Of a stretch of 33,713 nucleotides of DNA, positions 17,015-25,364 are shown one piece after another. The stretch's first letter is position 1. Each line of letters starts with the position of its first letter. Position numbers and translations under genes: made by a program. The stretch is taken from contig VGYR01000009.1 in assembly GCA_016872925.1 (NCBI GenBank), forward strand, positions 1-33,713, in the 5' to 3' direction. The notes under the pieces were generated by a model. That model was given only the letters and a program-made list of their open reading frames with translations, searched no databases and was not told where the DNA came from. Source of the DNA: Planctomycetota bacterium (lineage in GTDB: Bacteria > Planctomycetota > Planctomycetia > Pirellulales > UBA1268).

Positions 17015-17821
17015 TCAGCCCATCGTGGTCCGCAGCGCGGCCAGCAGTTCCGGCGTGCTGGCCACGATGAACCCCGGCCGGTCGAGGTCGAGGGCGTCGC
17101 CGGCGCCGGCGAAGCCTCCGAGCGCGCAGCCCGCCTCGCGGGCGATGAGCGCGCCGGCCGCCACGTCCCAGCAGGCGATCCGCCGCACCCAAAACGCGTG
17201 CAGCCGGCCGCAGGCGAGGTAGGCGAGGTTGAGCGCCGTCGAACCGGTTCGCCGGATCGCCTGCACGTGGGGCAGCACCGCCAGGAAGTCCCTCACCGCC
17301 TGGCAGTCGAGCGTGACGTGCGCCGGAAAGCTCACGGCCGCCACCGCCTGATCGGGATCGGTCACCAGAGGCGGTCCGATCCGCGTGCCGTTGAGAAACG
17401 CGCCGCCGCCGCGGCGGGCCGTGAAGCACTCATCCCGCAAGGGGTCGTAGATCGTCGCCACGACGAGCTCGGCGCCATCCGCCAGCGCCACCGAAACGCA
17501 GTAGGCGGGGAAGCCGTGCACGTAGTTCGTGGTCCCGTCGAGCGGATCGACGATCCAGCGGAGGCCTGATCCCGAGTGGCCCGGCTGGCCCGGAGCCGCA
17601 GCGGGGGATCCGGCGTCGGTCTCCTCGCCCACGAAACCATGCTGCGGGAACGCCCCCAGCACGATCCCGCGGACCTCCCGCTGGGCGGCGTGGTCGGCCT
17701 CGGTCACCAGGTCCCGCGGCCCCTTCGACGTCGCGGTGAATCGACCACGCCAGTCGGCCAGCACGCGGCCCGCCGCCCGGGCGGCGATCTCGCAGATCTC
17801 GAGCGGATCGGTGTCGGGCAT
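17015..17821 (-). CDS. Inositol monophosphatase family protein
   Basis: 268 aa. All metal-binding motifs of the family are present in order: DLVTEAD (about 37-43), GEET (about 65), WIVDPLDGTTNYVHG (about 88-102) and WDVAAGALIAREAG (about 219). These enzymes use Mg2+ to remove phosphate from inositol monophosphate or related small substrates (SuhB in E. coli also has an RNA-related role); family members also act on fructose 1,6-bisphosphate, histidinol phosphate or PAP, so the substrate is open. Upstream of the ATG the sequence TAGACT-CCGGCT-ATG could be a -10 element only six bases from the start, suggesting a leaderless transcript. It is divergent from the 232-aa gene. Confidence 0.92.
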   Translation of the reverse strand: MPDTDPLEICEIAARAAGRVLADWRGRFTATSKGPRDLVTEADHAAQREVRGIVLGAFPQHGFVGEETDAGSPAAAPGQPGHSGSGLRWIVDPLDGTTNYVHGFPAYCVSVALADGAELVVATIYDPLRDECFTARRGGGAFLNGTRIGPPLVTDPDQAVAAVSFPAHVTLDCQAVRDFLAVLPHVQAIRRTGSTALNLAYLACGRLHAFWVRRIACWDVAAGALIAREAGCALGGFAGAGDALDLDRPGFIVASTPELLAALRTTMG

Positions 17822-17904: not shown

Positions 17905-18603
17905 ATGCCCGATCCAACCACGTCGCCGTCTCCCTTCGCAGGCTGGGGCCGCGTGCCGGATGGCCGCGCCGCCCGCATCGACGCGACGGCGCCGCTGCGT
18001 GGCATCCAACTCGACGGCCCGGGCGGCCGCGACCGGCTGCTCGCCCTCGATCTCGGGGAGCGTGGATCGGCCCCCGTCGTCGACCACTGGGTGCGCGGCC
18101 CGGATCTGACGGTCGTCTGCGAGCCCCGCGACGGCCGGCTCCTGCGGGCCACGGTGATGTGGCGGCGGTCGACGCCAACCGGCGGAATCGACGCCTGGGA
18201 GGCGATCGTCTCGGCGCAGACGGCGCTGCTCGACTGCGATGCCACGCTGTCGGTCGTGTCGGATGTCGAGGTCGGCGAGTTGCTCGTGGCCGACGCCGCG
18301 TTCTCATGGACGCATTCGGCGGGCGGCCGTCCGCTGCCGGCGGGCGTCACGGCGACGCTGGCACGCCGGCCGGCGACCAGCGTGCTGGTGGCCGTGCATC
18401 CGGTCGACCTGCGGCGGATCGACGCCGAGATCCGGGACTCGGTGGCGCGGATCGAGTGCCGTCTGTTCGCCTCGGCCGTCGAGAAGGGAGTGCTGCTCCG
18501 CAGCCGGGTCCTCGCGGCGATCGGCCCACGGAGCGGCGACGAGGCGTGGGCCGCGGCGTTGCTGGCTGCGTTCGCCGAGTCGCCGGCCCCGCTGACGACC
18601 TGA
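17905..18603 (+). CDS. Conserved-looking hypothetical protein, 232 aa
   Basis: Not recognised. The protein has no signal peptide or membrane helix. It begins with a Pro/Ser-rich tail and then alternates short hydrophobic strands (RLLALDLG; DLTVVCEP; LRATVMWRR), suggesting a beta-rich globular N-terminal half. The C-terminal half has a strand-helix pattern (SVLVAVHPVDLRRIDAEIRD, RIECRLFASAVEKGVLLRSR). GGAG lies just upstream of the ATG, and GC bias at third codon positions supports coding. It is 198 bp upstream of the YhaO-like/YhaN-like pair on the same strand, so a link with that pair is possible but unproven. Confidence 0.7.
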   Translation: MPDPTTSPSPFAGWGRVPDGRAARIDATAPLRGIQLDGPGGRDRLLALDLGERGSAPVVDHWVRGPDLTVVCEPRDGRLLRATVMWRRSTPTGGIDAWEAIVSAQTALLDCDATLSVVSDVEVGELLVADAAFSWTHSAGGRPLPAGVTATLARRPATSVLVAVHPVDLRRIDAEIRDSVARIECRLFASAVEKGVLLRSRVLAAIGPRSGDEAWAAALLAAFAESPAPLTT

Positions 18604-18801: not shown

Positions 18802-20082
18802 GTGGCCGACATCGTGTTCGCGTTCGATCCGGCGCTGCATCGTCCGATCCCGGCGCCCGAGGCCGCGCCGCCGGAAGTCGTCGAGGCGGTGACGACCGCC
18901 GCCGTGGCTGCCCTCGAGGACGCCGCCGACGTCGCCAGCCGCGGAGAGGCCGCGGTGCTCGCAATCTGCGGGCGACTGCTCGACCCGTCGCGGGCCAGCC
19001 CCGCGCAGGCCGCCCGCTTGAGAAAGCTGGTCGTCGCGCTGGCGGATCACGGCTGCCGCACCCTCGTGTTCATCGACGACATGGCGGCCTGCCACGAGCT
19101 GTCGCGGATGCTGGGGGAGCCCCGCGGGCTCGCCTTCGTCACGCCAGCCGCCCCGTTCACGCTCGACATCCGCGGGCTGTCGGTGGAGCTGGTCTCGGCG
19201 CACGGTCCCGCCGGCGCCGCCGGCGCCGACGCCGACGCCCTGCCCCCCGCGGCCTCGCCGCTGCACCGCCGCGTGGTGCTGGGCTGGGACAACGCGCTGT
19301 GGTCGCCCGACCGCTGGGTGGCCGACGAACCGACCTTCGGCGTCGTGCCGCAGCCCCGGCTCTCGTCCTCGGCGGCGGCGTTCGCCGCCGCCGCCACGGC
19401 TTCGGCCGCCTGGTCGCAGCCCGGCACCTTCTGGGTTTGGGCCTCGCGCCAGCCACAGACGCTGCCTCCGGGAGTGCACTTCCTGCCGCCGCTGCAGCCG
19501 CGGTCGCCCGCGGAGCCGGCCGTCGGAGCCTGCTGCACGCTCACGCTGCTGGACCGCCCCGCCTCGGAGGAGGCCCGGACCGACCTGGTTTCCGCGCCGA
19601 ATGCCGACTGGCGCGGCAGCTGGCGGGAGGTGCCGACCCGCCGCGTCGCCTGGCGCACGGTGTCGGTGGAGTCGCCCACGGGCGGCGACGAGGAGCTGGC
19701 GACCACGATCTGGTCGGCGCTCGAGAAGCTGCCGCGGGAGCGTTCTGCCGCGGTGGAACTGCTCCGCTGCTCGGTGGCCTGCGGCACCAGCGTCGCCCGC
19801 CGCGTCCGCGTCGGCGAGATCGCGGCCGAGACGCTGGCGCGGCTCCGCGGCCTCCACGATCCCCGGTCCTTCCCCTGGTGGTGCATCGATCTGGTGGCCG
19901 AGCCCACCGAGTCGCTCGCCCCGCTGGGCCACGCGCGGTCGGGGGGCCGCCCCGGCTCGACGACGTCGTTCTCCTCGGCGCTGGCCGACATCGTGACCAT
20001 GGTCGAGCAATCCCAGACGCTGCCCGCGGCCGAGGCCCGCGAGGCGGGCTGGCTGGCGCTCGAGCTCATCGAGTCGGTCTGA
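18802..20082 (+). CDS. YhaO/SbcD-like protein with degenerate metallophosphoesterase site
   Basis: 426 aa, GTG start. By eye it follows YhaO/SbcD-type DNA-repair exonucleases along the whole length, but with the active site gone. The first D-x-H motif is replaced by FAFDPALH (6-13). GDLFD becomes CGRLLD (56-61). GNHD becomes FIDDMAA (90-96). The middle LLHTN-like histidine strand becomes VVLGWDN. G-H-x-H becomes WASRQ (213-217). Framing sequence is kept: LRKLVVALADHG before motif III, PAAPFTLDIRGLSVELVSAHG after it, and a capping-domain-like tail (WREVPTRRVAWRTVSVES, then helices). It is 39 bp upstream of the YhaN-like ATPase gene, the usual partner. Likely a structural, catalytically dead subunit. 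The homology is inferred from motif order, not computed; an unrelated alpha/beta protein is the alternative. Confidence 0.68.
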   Translation: MADIVFAFDPALHRPIPAPEAAPPEVVEAVTTAAVAALEDAADVASRGEAAVLAICGRLLDPSRASPAQAARLRKLVVALADHGCRTLVFIDDMAACHELSRMLGEPRGLAFVTPAAPFTLDIRGLSVELVSAHGPAGAAGADADALPPAASPLHRRVVLGWDNALWSPDRWVADEPTFGVVPQPRLSSSAAAFAAAATASAAWSQPGTFWVWASRQPQTLPPGVHFLPPLQPRSPAEPAVGACCTLTLLDRPASEEARTDLVSAPNADWRGSWREVPTRRVAWRTVSVESPTGGDEELATTIWSALEKLPRERSAAVELLRCSVACGTSVARRVRVGEIAAETLARLRGLHDPRSFPWWCIDLVAEPTESLAPLGHARSGGRPGSTTSFSSALADIVTMVEQSQTLPAAEAREAGWLALELIESV

Positions 20083-20121: not shown

Positions 20122-23100
20122 ATGTTCATCGAACGCATCGCCGTCGAGAAGTTCGGCGCCCTGGAAGGCACCGAGATCGACCGGCTCGGCCCGGGCGTCC
20201 AGGTGCTCTACGGCACCAACGAGACCGGCAAGACCACCCTCCTGGAGTTCGTCCGCGCGGTGTTCTTCGGCTTCGAGGGACTGTTCCGCCGGGGCGTGCT
20301 CGACGCCAGCCGCCCGTGCGCCGGCAGGCTGCTGGTCCGCATGCCGCCGGAGCAGACCCTGATCGCCATCGAGCGGCGGCACGAGGGGCCCGAACTCGCC
20401 GGAGTGACCAACGAGAGCTATGCCGACGACGTCGTCGGCCTGGGCGGAGATGCCGGCGACCTGGTCCGCATCGCCGACGTCGATCCCCGGCACGACGCCG
20501 CGGCCCGCCATCGGATCTACCTCCAGGACCTGGTGGGCGACATCGACGAGACGACCTTCACCAGCGTGATGGCCTTCGGCCTCGACGAACTTCACGAGCT
20601 CCGCACCCTCGAGCCCGAGGGCTGCGGCCGCCGGCTCTACGAACTCGCCGCCGGGCTCGACCGTTCGACGGTGGCGCGGGTGCTGAGCCACCTCCGCGAG
20701 GCGATGCGGCGGCTGGATGCCTCCGATCCCGCGGTGTCGCCGGTCGCGGCACTCGAGGCCCGGCGGGCCGACGTGCTCGAGCGGATGGCCGCGGCCGGCG
20801 CTCCCGCCGTCGCGGCGGGGGGGCTGTGGGCCGAACTGGCCCACCTCGACGCCGAGATCGCGGCCGTCGAGCCGCGGATCACGGCGGCGGAGCGGGGCGA
20901 GGGGGTGGTCCGCGGCGTGATCGCGCTGGAGCCTCTGCACGCCGAGTGGCGGCGCACCGCCGAGCGGCTCGCGGCGCTCGAGTCGGTGCCGCTGGTCCAC
21001 GCCGACCGCGATTCGTGGCGGCTGGCGAGCCGCCGGCTGCGCCGGATCGAGCGGCTGGCGGCGAAGCGGAAGAAGCTGCGCGGCAAGCTGGCCCGGCAGC
21101 TTCGCGACGTCCCCGCGGAGTCGGCCGTGTGGCGCAAGCGTGCCCTCGTGGCCGGGATCCTCGAGGACGCACCGAAGCTCGAGCGACTCTCCGCGGAAGC
21201 GGCCCGTGCCGAATCGCACGCCCGACTGGCGGCCCGCCGGTTCGGCGAGCAGGTCGGCCTGGCGGGTCTGTCCCGGGTCGTGCCGATCGCCGCGGCGCTC
21301 GACGCCTCCGGCCCGCTGACGCCCGACGTCCTCCTGCCCGAGGGGTTCGCCCTCTCGTTCGGTCCACTGCGGGCCCGGGCCCGCGACTGCTCCCGCGCCG
21401 GCCGCGAGGTCGCCGAGGCCCGGCGCGGCCTCGCCGAGGCCCGCCGATCGCTCGACGACACCCGGGGCAGCGTGAAGGGCGCCGGCTCCACGCTCGCGGG
21501 GCTCTCGATCGCCCAGGCCATCGAGCAGGCTGCGGGCCGCGTGGCCGCCATCCGCCGGCGGATCACCGCCGGCGACCAGCTGGCCGAGCTCGACCGCACG
21601 ATCGCCGGTCTCGACCGCGCCGCGGCGGAGAGCGTGGAGAATCAGCTCGTCCCGGTGCCCTGGCTGCTCGCGCTGGGCACGCTGTTCACCCTCGGCACCG
21701 GCATGCTGCTCTCCGGCCTGCTGCTGCCCCGCGAGGTGACCGGCTCGATGGCCTACGCCCTGGCGGCGCTCGGCCTGGCGGGTGCGGGCATCGCGTCGGT
21801 GACGACCTGGTCGCTCGACAAGAACACCACCGCGCGGCTCGACCGGCTGCGCCGTCAGCTCGAGCTGGCGCGAAAGCAGCGGGACGAGCTGCTCGCGCAG
21901 TGCGGCGCGCTCGACGCCGACCTCGCCGGCGATGCGGCCACCTCGCTCGACCGGCGGCTCGCCGCCGCCCAGGCCGAGCTCGACCGGCTCGAGGACCTGC
22001 TCGCCCGCGAGGGCTCGGTGCACGTGCTGACCGACCGGGTGACGCTCGCCGAGCAGGCCGTCGCCCGGGCGGTCGAGGCCCGCACGGCCGCCCGTGGCCG
22101 CTGGCGGAAGGCGCTGGCCCAGCGCGGGCTGCCCGAAGACCTCTCGCCGCGGGAGGTGCGGCAGATCGCGGCCCACCGCCACACGCTCCTCACGCTCGAC
22201 GACGATCGCCGGCGGCTCTCCGAGGAGGCGCGGCACAAGCGGGAGGAACTCGCCGCCCTGGGCCGGCGGATCGACGAGGTGCTCGTCGAATGCGAGCTCG
22301 TGCCCGAGGCCACGCCGGCGGAGCACCTGCAGCTGCTCCAGGATCGGCTCGATGTCGACCGTGGCGCGATCCGGCGCCGCGGGTCACTCACCCGCCGGCT
22401 GGAGTCGGCGCGGCGCCGGCATCGCAGCGCGGTGCGGCAGGTGCGGGTCGCCGAGCGGGCGATTCGGGAGTTGCTCGACCGCTGGGGCGTGAAGACCGCC
22501 GAGGAGTTTCTGGCGAAAGTCGATCGGCGGCCGGAGTACGAGGAGACCCGGGCCGCGGCGGCCGCCGCCGAGACCGCCTGGTCCAACGCCCGGCGGCGCA
22601 CGACGGAGCCTCCGGAGGTGGATCGCTGGCTCGCCGAGGCGACGGTCGTGCCCCTGGCGACGAGGCTCGCCGAGGCCCGCGAGGCGACGCACCGGCACCG
22701 CGCCACCCTGTCGGCGGCCCGCGAGCGGCGTGAGGCGGTGCTCCGGCGCGTCGAGGCGGCCGCCCACGACCGCACGCTCGAAGCCCTGCAGGCGGAACTC
22801 GCGACGATCGAGGATTCGCTCGTCCAGCAGCAGCACAGGCGGGACCTGCTCCACCGGGCGCACGTGCTGCTCGAGCAGACGCGGGCCGCGGTGGCCCGAG
22901 ACCACCAGCCGCCGGTGCTGCGGGAGGCGTCCCGCTGGCTGGCCCGGCTGACGGAGGGCCGCTACCCGTCGATCACGACGGCGATCGACGAGGCGCGGCT
23001 GGAGGTGCACGATCAGGAAGGGGAACTCTGGAATCCGGAGCGGCTCAGCCGCGGCACGCGGGAGCAGGTGTTCCTGGCGCTGCGGCTGGCGCTGATCAGG

Positions 23101-23538
23101 GACCTCGGGCGGCACGACGTGAGCCTGCCGGTGGTGATGGACGACGCGCTGGTCAACTTCGACGACGCCCGGGCCCGTTCGGCGGCCCGCGTGCTCGTCG
23201 AGTTCATCACCGAACTGGCGGCGGATCGCCAGATGCTCGTGCTCACCTGCCACGAACACGTGGCCCGGACCTTCGCCGCCGCCGGTGCGCACGTCAGGTC
23301 TTTCAGCGATCCGCGGCCGCTGTGGCACGAGGCTTCGCGACCGAGCCCGGCCCCGACCCCGGTTCCCGTGGCGGCACCCGCGCCGCAGCCGCTGCCCGTC
23401 GTCGATGCCACGCCGATCGCGCCGCCCGTGGTGGTGGACGCCGGCGACCTGTGGCCCGCCGAAGCCTTCTTTTTCGGGCGGGAATCGACGCCCGCGGCGG
23501 GCGAGCCGACCAAGCGCCCCCGCCGGCGCACGCGGTGA
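20122..23538 (+). CDS. YhaN/Rad50-like coiled-coil ATPase with membrane segments
   Basis: 1138 aa. Walker A GTNETGKTT is at 31-39 in the AAA_27/YhaN context (FIERIAVEKFGALEG). Long Arg/Glu/Ala-rich coiled coils follow. At about 512-570 the coil is interrupted by two hydrophobic segments (WLLALGTLFTLGTGMLLSGL and MAYALAALGLAGAGIAS) separated by a short loop, in place of a Rad50 zinc hook; no CxxC is present. A second coil leads to the ABC-type signature LSRGTREQVFLALRLAL (about 974), Walker B VVMDDALVNFDD (about 1004) and H-loop TCHEH (about 1042). The last ~68 residues are a Pro-rich linker ending in the basic KRPRRRTR. The family acts with YhaO-type nucleases on DNA ends. The two membrane segments suggest a membrane-tethered dimer. 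Confidence 0.88.
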   Translation: MFIERIAVEKFGALEGTEIDRLGPGVQVLYGTNETGKTTLLEFVRAVFFGFEGLFRRGVLDASRPCAGRLLVRMPPEQTLIAIERRHEGPELAGVTNESYADDVVGLGGDAGDLVRIADVDPRHDAAARHRIYLQDLVGDIDETTFTSVMAFGLDELHELRTLEPEGCGRRLYELAAGLDRSTVARVLSHLREAMRRLDASDPAVSPVAALEARRADVLERMAAAGAPAVAAGGLWAELAHLDAEIAAVEPRITAAERGEGVVRGVIALEPLHAEWRRTAERLAALESVPLVHADRDSWRLASRRLRRIERLAAKRKKLRGKLARQLRDVPAESAVWRKRALVAGILEDAPKLERLSAEAARAESHARLAARRFGEQVGLAGLSRVVPIAAALDASGPLTPDVLLPEGFALSFGPLRARARDCSRAGREVAEARRGLAEARRSLDDTRGSVKGAGSTLAGLSIAQAIEQAAGRVAAIRRRITAGDQLAELDRTIAGLDRAAAESVENQLVPVPWLLALGTLFTLGTGMLLSGLLLPREVTGSMAYALAALGLAGAGIASVTTWSLDKNTTARLDRLRRQLELARKQRDELLAQCGALDADLAGDAATSLDRRLAAAQAELDRLEDLLAREGSVHVLTDRVTLAEQAVARAVEARTAARGRWRKALAQRGLPEDLSPREVRQIAAHRHTLLTLDDDRRRLSEEARHKREELAALGRRIDEVLVECELVPEATPAEHLQLLQDRLDVDRGAIRRRGSLTRRLESARRRHRSAVRQVRVAERAIRELLDRWGVKTAEEFLAKVDRRPEYEETRAAAAAAETAWSNARRRTTEPPEVDRWLAEATVVPLATRLAEAREATHRHRATLSAARERREAVLRRVEAAAHDRTLEALQAELATIEDSLVQQQHRRDLLHRAHVLLEQTRAAVARDHQPPVLREASRWLARLTEGRYPSITTAIDEARLEVHDQEGELWNPERLSRGTREQVFLALRLALIRDLGRHDVSLPVVMDDALVNFDDARARSAARVLVEFITELAADRQMLVLTCHEHVARTFAAAGAHVRSFSDPRPLWHEASRPSPAPTPVPVAAPAPQPLPVVDATPIAPPVVVDAGDLWPAEAFFFGRESTPAAGEPTKRPRRRTR

Positions 23539-24108: not shown

Positions 24109-25227
24109 CTATGCAAGTCCGGTCGGGGGCGGATTTCCGGGGTGGCGGCCGCGGCGCGCCCGTCCGGCCCCGGGCGGACGGGCGGCCGGCCCGTCGCCGC
24201 CGGCGGACAGGCTGTCGAGTTCGGCCTGGAGCATGGTCAAGGCGGCCTGCAGGAAGGCGACGGCGATCGGCCCCACGAAGATTCCGATCGGCCCGACGGC
24301 CCCCACGCCCCCGAGCACGCTGAGCAGCGCCAGCAGCGGGTGCAGCTTCGACTGGCCGTGGAGCACCATCGGCTTGACCACGTTGTCGGCGGTCGACACG
24401 ACGCACAGGCCCCACAGCGCGAGGCCCGCCGCGGCCCAGGTGCTCTTCGCGAACACCAGCAGCCAGAGGCTCGCCGCACCCCACACGATCGCCGCGCCGG
24501 CCACGGGCACCAGGGCGCCGAAGAAGGTCAGGAGCGTCAGCAGGAACACCTTCTCGAGGCCGGCCACGTAGAAGCCGATGCCCGCCAGCACCGCCTGCAC
24601 GAGCGCCGCCAGGAGGAGCGAACTCACGACCGCGCGGCTGATCTCCTCGAACTCCTCGAGGAGCTGCCATTGGTAGCGGCGGTCGAGCGGCACGAGCCGC
24701 GTCACGCCCTCGAGCATCCGCACGCCGTCGGCGAAGAAGTAGAACAGGCTCACGATCGTGACGATCACACCCAGCAGCACCTTGCCGACCACCACCGGCG
24801 CCCGGGCGGCCACGGGCGCGATCCAGTCCTCGAGGAGCCGCTTGATCTCCGCGTTCACGCCGTCGGCCGTGACCTGCAGCCCGGTCGTCTCGTTGAACCG
24901 GGCGACGAGCCCGTCGAGCACGTGGGGATCGAGCCTCACGCCGTCGGGCCGGCGGAGGATGGCCGCCGCCTCGCCCCCGGCGCGAACGAGCACCAGCGAC
25001 ACCGGCGCGAGCACGATCAGCACCACCAGGAGCGTGCTCAGCGCGGCCGCCGCCCAGTCGGGCCAGCCGGTCCGGCCGCGGATCCAGCGGTGCAGCGGCC
25101 CGAAGATCACGACCAGCATCGCCGCCAGGAGCATCGGCAGCAGGAAGCTCGACAGCACCCGCAGGGACAGAAACCCGAACAGGGCCACCAGCCCCAGCAG
25201 CACGCCGAACGAGACGAGGCGGGTCAT
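24109..25227 (-). CDS. AI-2E family transporter (permease)
   Basis: 372 aa polytopic protein. The N-terminal helices (LVSFGVLLGLVALFGFLSL, then LLPMLLAAMLVVIFGPLHRW) and the C-terminal block with FFGALVPVAGAAIVWG, STADNVVKPMVLHGQ and GPIGIFVGPIAVAFLQA are typical of the AI-2E/UPF0118 family, homotrimeric inner-membrane permeases or exporters; many members are not AI-2 transporters. The D-N-x-x-K-P motif near the end is characteristic. Start 25227 follows from the hydrophobic N-terminus; upstream in-frame residues are Cys/Arg-rich and unlikely. The C-terminal 30 residues are Gly/Arg/Pro-rich and probably disordered. Divergent from the GT2 fusion gene across a 137-bp region. Confidence 0.9.
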   Translation of the reverse strand: MTRLVSFGVLLGLVALFGFLSLRVLSSFLLPMLLAAMLVVIFGPLHRWIRGRTGWPDWAAAALSTLLVVLIVLAPVSLVLVRAGGEAAAILRRPDGVRLDPHVLDGLVARFNETTGLQVTADGVNAEIKRLLEDWIAPVAARAPVVVGKVLLGVIVTIVSLFYFFADGVRMLEGVTRLVPLDRRYQWQLLEEFEEISRAVVSSLLLAALVQAVLAGIGFYVAGLEKVFLLTLLTFFGALVPVAGAAIVWGAASLWLLVFAKSTWAAAGLALWGLCVVSTADNVVKPMVLHGQSKLHPLLALLSVLGGVGAVGPIGIFVGPIAVAFLQAALTMLQAELDSLSAGGDGPAARPPGAGRARRGRHPGNPPPTGLA

Positions 25228-25364
25228 GTTCGCGGTCCGCGAGCGGACGCCACAGGGACAACGAGGGGCAATACTCCAGCGAGTGTACCTGCCCCGGAGA
25301 TTCGCCTCGTCCGCGGCCGGCGAGGTATCCTTGCGCCTCAATCCCTCCCGCCAGGAAGCCTCGC
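25228..25364. promoter_or_regulatory. Divergent intergenic region
   Basis: 137 bp between the AI-2E gene and the GT2 fusion gene, expected to hold both promoters. TATCCT at 25326-25331 is a weak -10 candidate for the rightward gene. AGGAAG at 25353-25358 is a clear Shine-Dalgarno site six bases before ATG 25365. The -35 assignment is uncertain. Confidence 0.35.

Follow-up and report, generated by a model that had tools for sequence, protein, structure and literature searches.

Mre11-Rad50, SbcCD and YhaO/YhaN are the closest described systems to the locus analysed here. The name YhaO, applied below to one nuclease-like subfamily, follows that of the Bacillus proteins. Within Mre11-Rad50 complexes, Mre11 dimerises via its nuclease domain, has a capping domain that binds DNA and terminates with a Rad50-binding domain (PMC6265447). 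The ATPase activity of the nuclease-deficient H84Q variant of SbcCD is lowered by only about 15% (PMC6265447), and a dead subunit need therefore not harm the motor. Catalytically inactive proteins with a calcineurin-like fold are encountered in eukaryotes as the B-subunits of DNA polymerases (PMC4996933). A natural nuclease-dead Mre11/YhaO lineage possessing its own Rad50-like partner was not found described in the open literature, which is weak evidence as subscription papers and preprints lie outside it.

Organization of the locus

The window, that is, the whole stretch of 33,713 nucleotides that was analysed, is located on contig C9 of a planctomycete genome of 4.5 Mb distributed over 503 contigs. 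The reading of open frames agrees with the first-pass annotation, which had placed an open reading frame at 18802-20082 and an ATPase 39 bp further on. The former starts with GTG, just 3' of a GGAGG ribosome-binding site, and is open over its 426 codons. RNA structure was looked for in the gap between the two genes and none was found. The features of the locus are as follows.

17905..18603, forward strand: conserved upstream gene, 232 aa, with a beta-supersandwich model; in 48 family loci it precedes the pair in the same orientation
18802..20082, forward strand: nuclease-dead Mre11/YhaO-like protein, 426 aa, from its open frame, fold, conserved family and dN/dS
18826..18834, forward strand: former motif I (D-x-H), in which Asp9 survives and Ala11 stands in place of the His (alignment)
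18973..18984, forward strand: former motif II (GDxxD), with Arg58 at the position of the metal-bridging Asp; Asp61 survives (alignment)
19078..19083, forward strand: former motif III (GNHD), with Asp93-Met94 at the positions of the Asn and the catalytic His (alignment)
19291..19293, forward strand: former motif IV His, replaced by Asn164 (alignment, least certain column)
19444..19452, forward strand: former motif V (GHxH), both His lost, Ser215-Arg-Gln217 (alignment)
19612..19899, forward strand: residues 271-366, which correspond to the capping domain of Mre11 (from the alignment of the model to Mre11)
19966..20079, forward strand: residues 389-426, a conserved hairpin of helices at the C-terminus and a candidate for binding the ATPase (predicted helices, invariant residues)
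20122..23538, forward strand: Rad50/YhaN-like ATPase, 1138 aa, AAA_27 and AAA_23 above their cut-offs in the Pfam/NCBIfam scan
20212..20235, forward strand: Walker A, GTNETGKT (sequence reading)
21655..21810, forward strand: hydrophobic hairpin midway along the coiled coil, without CxxC zinc hook; possible membrane anchor (hydropathy)
23044..23166, forward strand: ABC signature LSRGTRE and Walker B (LPVVMDDALVNFDD) (sequence reading)

In the first alignment, the ATPase gene follows the nuclease-like gene at every one of the 73 loci; in a larger set it does so at 149 of 166, several of the misses being due to the search pattern or to a contig end. All the full-length ATPases that were read keep Walker A, and nearly all carry an LSRGTRE-type signature and Walker B, so that the pair includes the adjacent Rad50-like ATPase, complete in its three motifs, that is expected of a Mre11-Rad50 system. 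No CxxC zinc hook was present at the coiled-coil apex of the family ATPases read, where a hydrophobic stretch is found instead. Judging from hydropathy, this hairpin may anchor the apex in the membrane; it falls below the hydropathy cut-off in several sequences. The YhaN protein of Bacillus has a similar hydrophobic feature in its coiled coil. A search with PADLOC gave a weak match of the ATPase to LmuB (E 1e-8) and matches to other AAA models, and a weak Cas11e score, with nothing else, for the pseudo-nuclease. The locus is unlikely to be a defence island, these matches being generic to AAA proteins and the pair being near-universal in the order rather than patchy.

The conserved upstream gene ends 198 bp before the pair and is also present in three loci (L185, L187, L188) from two other families of the order; the profile used did not find it near most order-level copies. 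It has no match in Pfam. Its confident structural model resembles galactose mutarotase and the periplasmic domain of YidC, and a role as replacement nuclease was discarded as the model is a beta-supersandwich, with no nuclease among the matches listed. Its membership in the functional unit formed by the pair is uncertain. An inositol monophosphatase gene (17015-17821, reverse strand) and an AI-2E family transporter gene (24109-25341, reverse strand) flank the pair in 44 and 35 named family loci respectively. The conservation of these flanking genes indicates that the locus is syntenic.

Fold of the protein and erosion of its active site

A structural model of the 426-aa protein was predicted using 21 family sequences as input (mean pLDDT 82.7, pTM 0.82). 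Its top Foldseek matches are nearly all Mre11 or SbcD. The structural aligner produced a Z score of 18.0 against human Mre11 (rmsd 4.1, 296 residues aligned) and of about 17 against E. coli SbcD, to be compared with 11-12 against other phosphoesterases. The model contains a calcineurin-like phosphoesterase fold followed by a capping domain, and aligns with Mre11 over residues 1-371. The prediction and fold search proposed by the first-pass annotation therefore rule out an unrelated fold. The C-terminal hairpin is predicted as two helices (389-404 and 409-424) and contains many residues that are invariant in the family alignment.

Scans with the single sequence returned no match in NCBIfam or in Pfam, including Metallophos (PF00149) at its curated cut-off, which gives the extent of the divergence of this protein; a single-sequence search of the PDB provided nothing useful. 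Comparison of profiles with hhalign connected the family to its order-level relatives (E 7.8e-19, 365 columns) and to the intact YhaO-like proteins (E 4.7e-8, 245 columns). The profiles of the order-level and of the intact YhaO-like proteins match the Mre11 crystal chains with E 2.4e-9 and 1.4e-16 respectively. Pfam Metallophos itself is matched by 6 of 18 order-level members, and the order-level relative L101 scores 21.9 bits for a cut-off of 21.5. By its fold and by its descent, the protein is a member of the Mre11/SbcD/YhaO superfamily, outside its active nucleases.

The metal ligands of Pyrococcus furiosus Mre11, namely D8, H10, D49, N84, H173, H206 and H208, with H85 as catalytic residue, were located by alignment against intact YhaO-like homologues, the H173 column being the least certain. 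D8 corresponds to Asp9 and is the only one of the seven ligands kept. H10 is replaced by Ala11, D49 by Arg58, N84 by Asp93, H173 by Asn164, H206 by Ser215 and H208 by Gln217, and the catalytic H85 by Met94. The protein thus lacks the full set of seven ligands and GNHD histidine that defines an active Mre11/SbcD nuclease. The alignment agrees with the five changes already read in the sequence (D-x-H to FAFDPALH, GDLFD to CGRLLD, GNHD to FIDDMAA, the LLHTN His to LGWDN and GHxH to WASRQ). The further claim that every motif had been lost is correct for the catalytic His and six of the seven ligands, and too strong for Asp9 and for Asp61, the second Asp of GDxxD, which survive.

This erosion is a property of the whole family. 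Its sequences (n=53) keep 0-2 of the seven ligands and the catalytic His in no case, and the position of Asp9 is occupied by Asn in eight of them. A di-metal site is impossible in this family. The order-level sequences (n=69) keep 0-5 ligands; N84 and the catalytic His are absent from all, and Gly replaces H206 in 69 of 69. D8, H10, D49, H173 and H208 are kept by many of these copies and, as many order-level orthologues combine several ligands (up to five of seven), their active site may bind one metal ion. All seven ligands are present in the 17 intact YhaO-like copies. It had been proposed that intact near relatives would make this a decaying gene: the catalytic His is missing from every one of the 53 family and 69 order-level sequences, each of which is also short of at least two ligands. 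Within the window's family, conservation in the former active-site loops equals that of the remaining core, and the highly conserved former motif regions contain new invariant residues in the family alignment (Gly57, Asp61-Pro62, Arg64, Ser66-Pro67 and Gln69).

Retention and evolutionary history

The dead Mre11 homologue is old and is retained order-wide under purifying selection. The dN/dS ratio in close pairs is 0.08-0.26. The first search for the window's family obtained a match in 23 of 25 genomes, with no internal stop in any match, and the 20 relatives aligned are 34-80% identical to the 426-aa protein. In a search through named genomes 54 loci were recovered, whose titles indicate Planctomycetota in nearly all cases and Pirellulales in several; titles such as Kuenenia or Planctomicrobium among them are probably naming errors. 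The order-level profile matched 239 of 248 genomes of this planctomycete order and 114 of the 117 genera sampled, these being counts of matches alone, with the motif state read in a fetched subset. Stop codons inside some of the order-level matches look like read-through past the normal C-terminal stop.

The window's protein is the extreme end of an older and wider lineage, a point that the first-pass annotation overlooked. Three states can be distinguished: the intact YhaO-like proteins, with GNHD and GHxH; the partly eroded order-level form, in which GNHD is gone, GHxH has become GG-x-x and Asp-x-His and Gly-Asp are often kept; and the window's family, with nearly nothing left. A dead and an intact copy were found together in five of the genomes checked (G038, G111, G200, G102 and G140), and they are therefore paralogues. 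In a tree computed with the motif columns masked, a branch supported at 100/98 separates all 17 intact copies from the dead ones, and a single change of state is needed. The N-terminal parts of the partner ATPases separate dead from intact likewise (SH-aLRT 93). With a root on the intact side, this topology would correspond to a single loss in a duplicated pair. The tree has no outside outgroup, neither Bacillus YhaO nor SbcD, and its branches are long; the dead copies of Planctomycetales moreover occupy two places, one of them nearest to the intact copies, so that a further independent loss is possible.

Genomes of Planctomycetales (L213, L214, L221, L223, L230, L232-L234) have dead YhaO-like copies of their own, in which the motifs have been replaced differently (for instance LGEGAER, LCKGTQR) and some of which adjoin an intact copy. 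They possibly represent a second, independent loss. Among the genomes of the window's family, G358 alone strongly matched intact YhaO, with a copy that carries GNHD and GHVH. The window's own genome encodes an SbcD-like protein with GNHD at a separate locus, on contig C12, next to an AAA ATPase. Cutting can thus happen elsewhere than in the dead pair. The SbcD-like proteins of the family (L030, L156-L158, L160-L166, L168, L169) keep GNHD, but in D-x-H the His has become Gln and GHxH reads GDWH, which suggests from the sequence a variant metal site.

Proposed function and comparison with known systems

This nuclease-dead Mre11/YhaO paralogue is probably the subunit, unable to cut, of an ATPase complex of the Rad50/YhaN type. 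Indeed, a dead homologue kept under selection beside its ATPase, and nearly order-wide, argues that the job of the pair probably requires no cutting. Complex formation, DNA binding and membrane anchoring would be organized as follows. The C-terminal hairpin would bind the base of the ATPase coiled coil, in the manner of the Rad50-binding domain of Mre11, and the pseudo-nuclease body and capping region would bind or gate DNA. ATP binding and hydrolysis would open and close the ATPase heads; in the simplest reading, the result would be an ATP-gated, non-cutting clamp or tether on DNA. The hydrophobic hairpin at the apex would hold the complex in the membrane. Any cutting required would fall to SbcCD or, in genomes that have one, to the intact YhaO-like paralogue. 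The fuller scenario, in which duplication of YhaO/YhaN, one nuclease loss and stepwise erosion produced a near-core, membrane-anchored pair of the Mre11-Rad50 type acting as a non-cutting, ATP-driven clamp or tether, is plausible and held more tentatively, somewhat short of probable.

Since the former active-site loops are conserved like the core, a serious rival is that the pocket has been repurposed for another activity or ligand (a nucleotide, one metal ion, a peptide), making the protein an enzyme or a sensor. The strong conservation and new invariant residues of the former motif regions speak for this reading, as do the five ligands retained in many order-level copies. It is nevertheless considered unlikely, as the family can form no di-metal site and even its last ligand, Asp9, is Asn in eight sequences; loop conservation as such fits a binding site and a scaffold equally well. 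Slightly less credit is given to a regulatory role, by which the dead pair would restrain end processing, either in competing for DNA ends with SbcCD or the intact paralogue, or in recruiting a nuclease. The separate SbcD-like gene of the window's own genome and the intact paralogues of the five genomes named above speak for it, but the dead copies have an ATPase lineage of their own and, G358 excepted, intact YhaO was not strongly matched in most genomes of the window's family.

An envelope function, in which a membrane-inserted ATPase would work together with the upstream beta-supersandwich protein at the membrane and not on DNA, is improbable. The retention of the upstream gene in 48 family loci and in the three loci from other families, the likeness of its model to the YidC periplasmic domain and galactose mutarotase, and the hydrophobic hairpin of the ATPase can be invoked in its support; against it, the profile used missed this gene near most order-level copies, the ATPase is of the Rad50/YhaN type and the upstream gene stands 198 bp from the pair. 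As for a decaying gene or a chance resemblance unrelated to any functional Mre11 relative, the empty single-sequence searches of Pfam, NCBIfam and the PDB might have suggested it, but the results refute it: decay is ruled out by the dN/dS values and order-wide retention, and chance by the Mre11 fold and the profile-profile comparisons. The non-cutting subunit of an ATPase complex is accordingly the reading that is retained here.

Compared with YhaO/YhaN, the pair has the same order of a nuclease-like gene followed by an ATPase, similar protein sizes, a YhaN-like ATPase (AAA_27) and sequence kinship to the intact planctomycete copies. It differs in the loss of the catalytic residues, whereas the intact copies of the phylum keep all seven ligands. 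With SbcCD and Mre11-Rad50 it shares the Mre11 fold, the capping region and an ABC ATPase with Walker A, signature and Walker B, but it has no di-metal site and a hydrophobic stretch takes the place of the CxxC zinc hook. The SbcD-like gene of the same genome belongs to the same superfamily and is also next to an AAA ATPase; unlike the window's gene, it stands at a separate locus and keeps GNHD, with GDWH for GHxH. The polymerase B-subunits offer the parallel of a calcineurin-like phosphoesterase fold kept as a dead subunit, there of a DNA machine (PMC4996933), and differ by their polymerase partner, their extra OB domain and their separate lineage. Annotation by fold or by gene neighbourhood would mislabel the dead proteins described here as exonucleases. 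Whether Mre11-Rad50 does anything besides cutting is usually approached with engineered nuclease-dead mutants. Evolution has made the same separation here and has maintained it throughout an order in which erosion has advanced to different degrees from branch to branch and some of the genomes also encode an intact paralogue, and a non-nuclease role is thus directly testable in this lineage.
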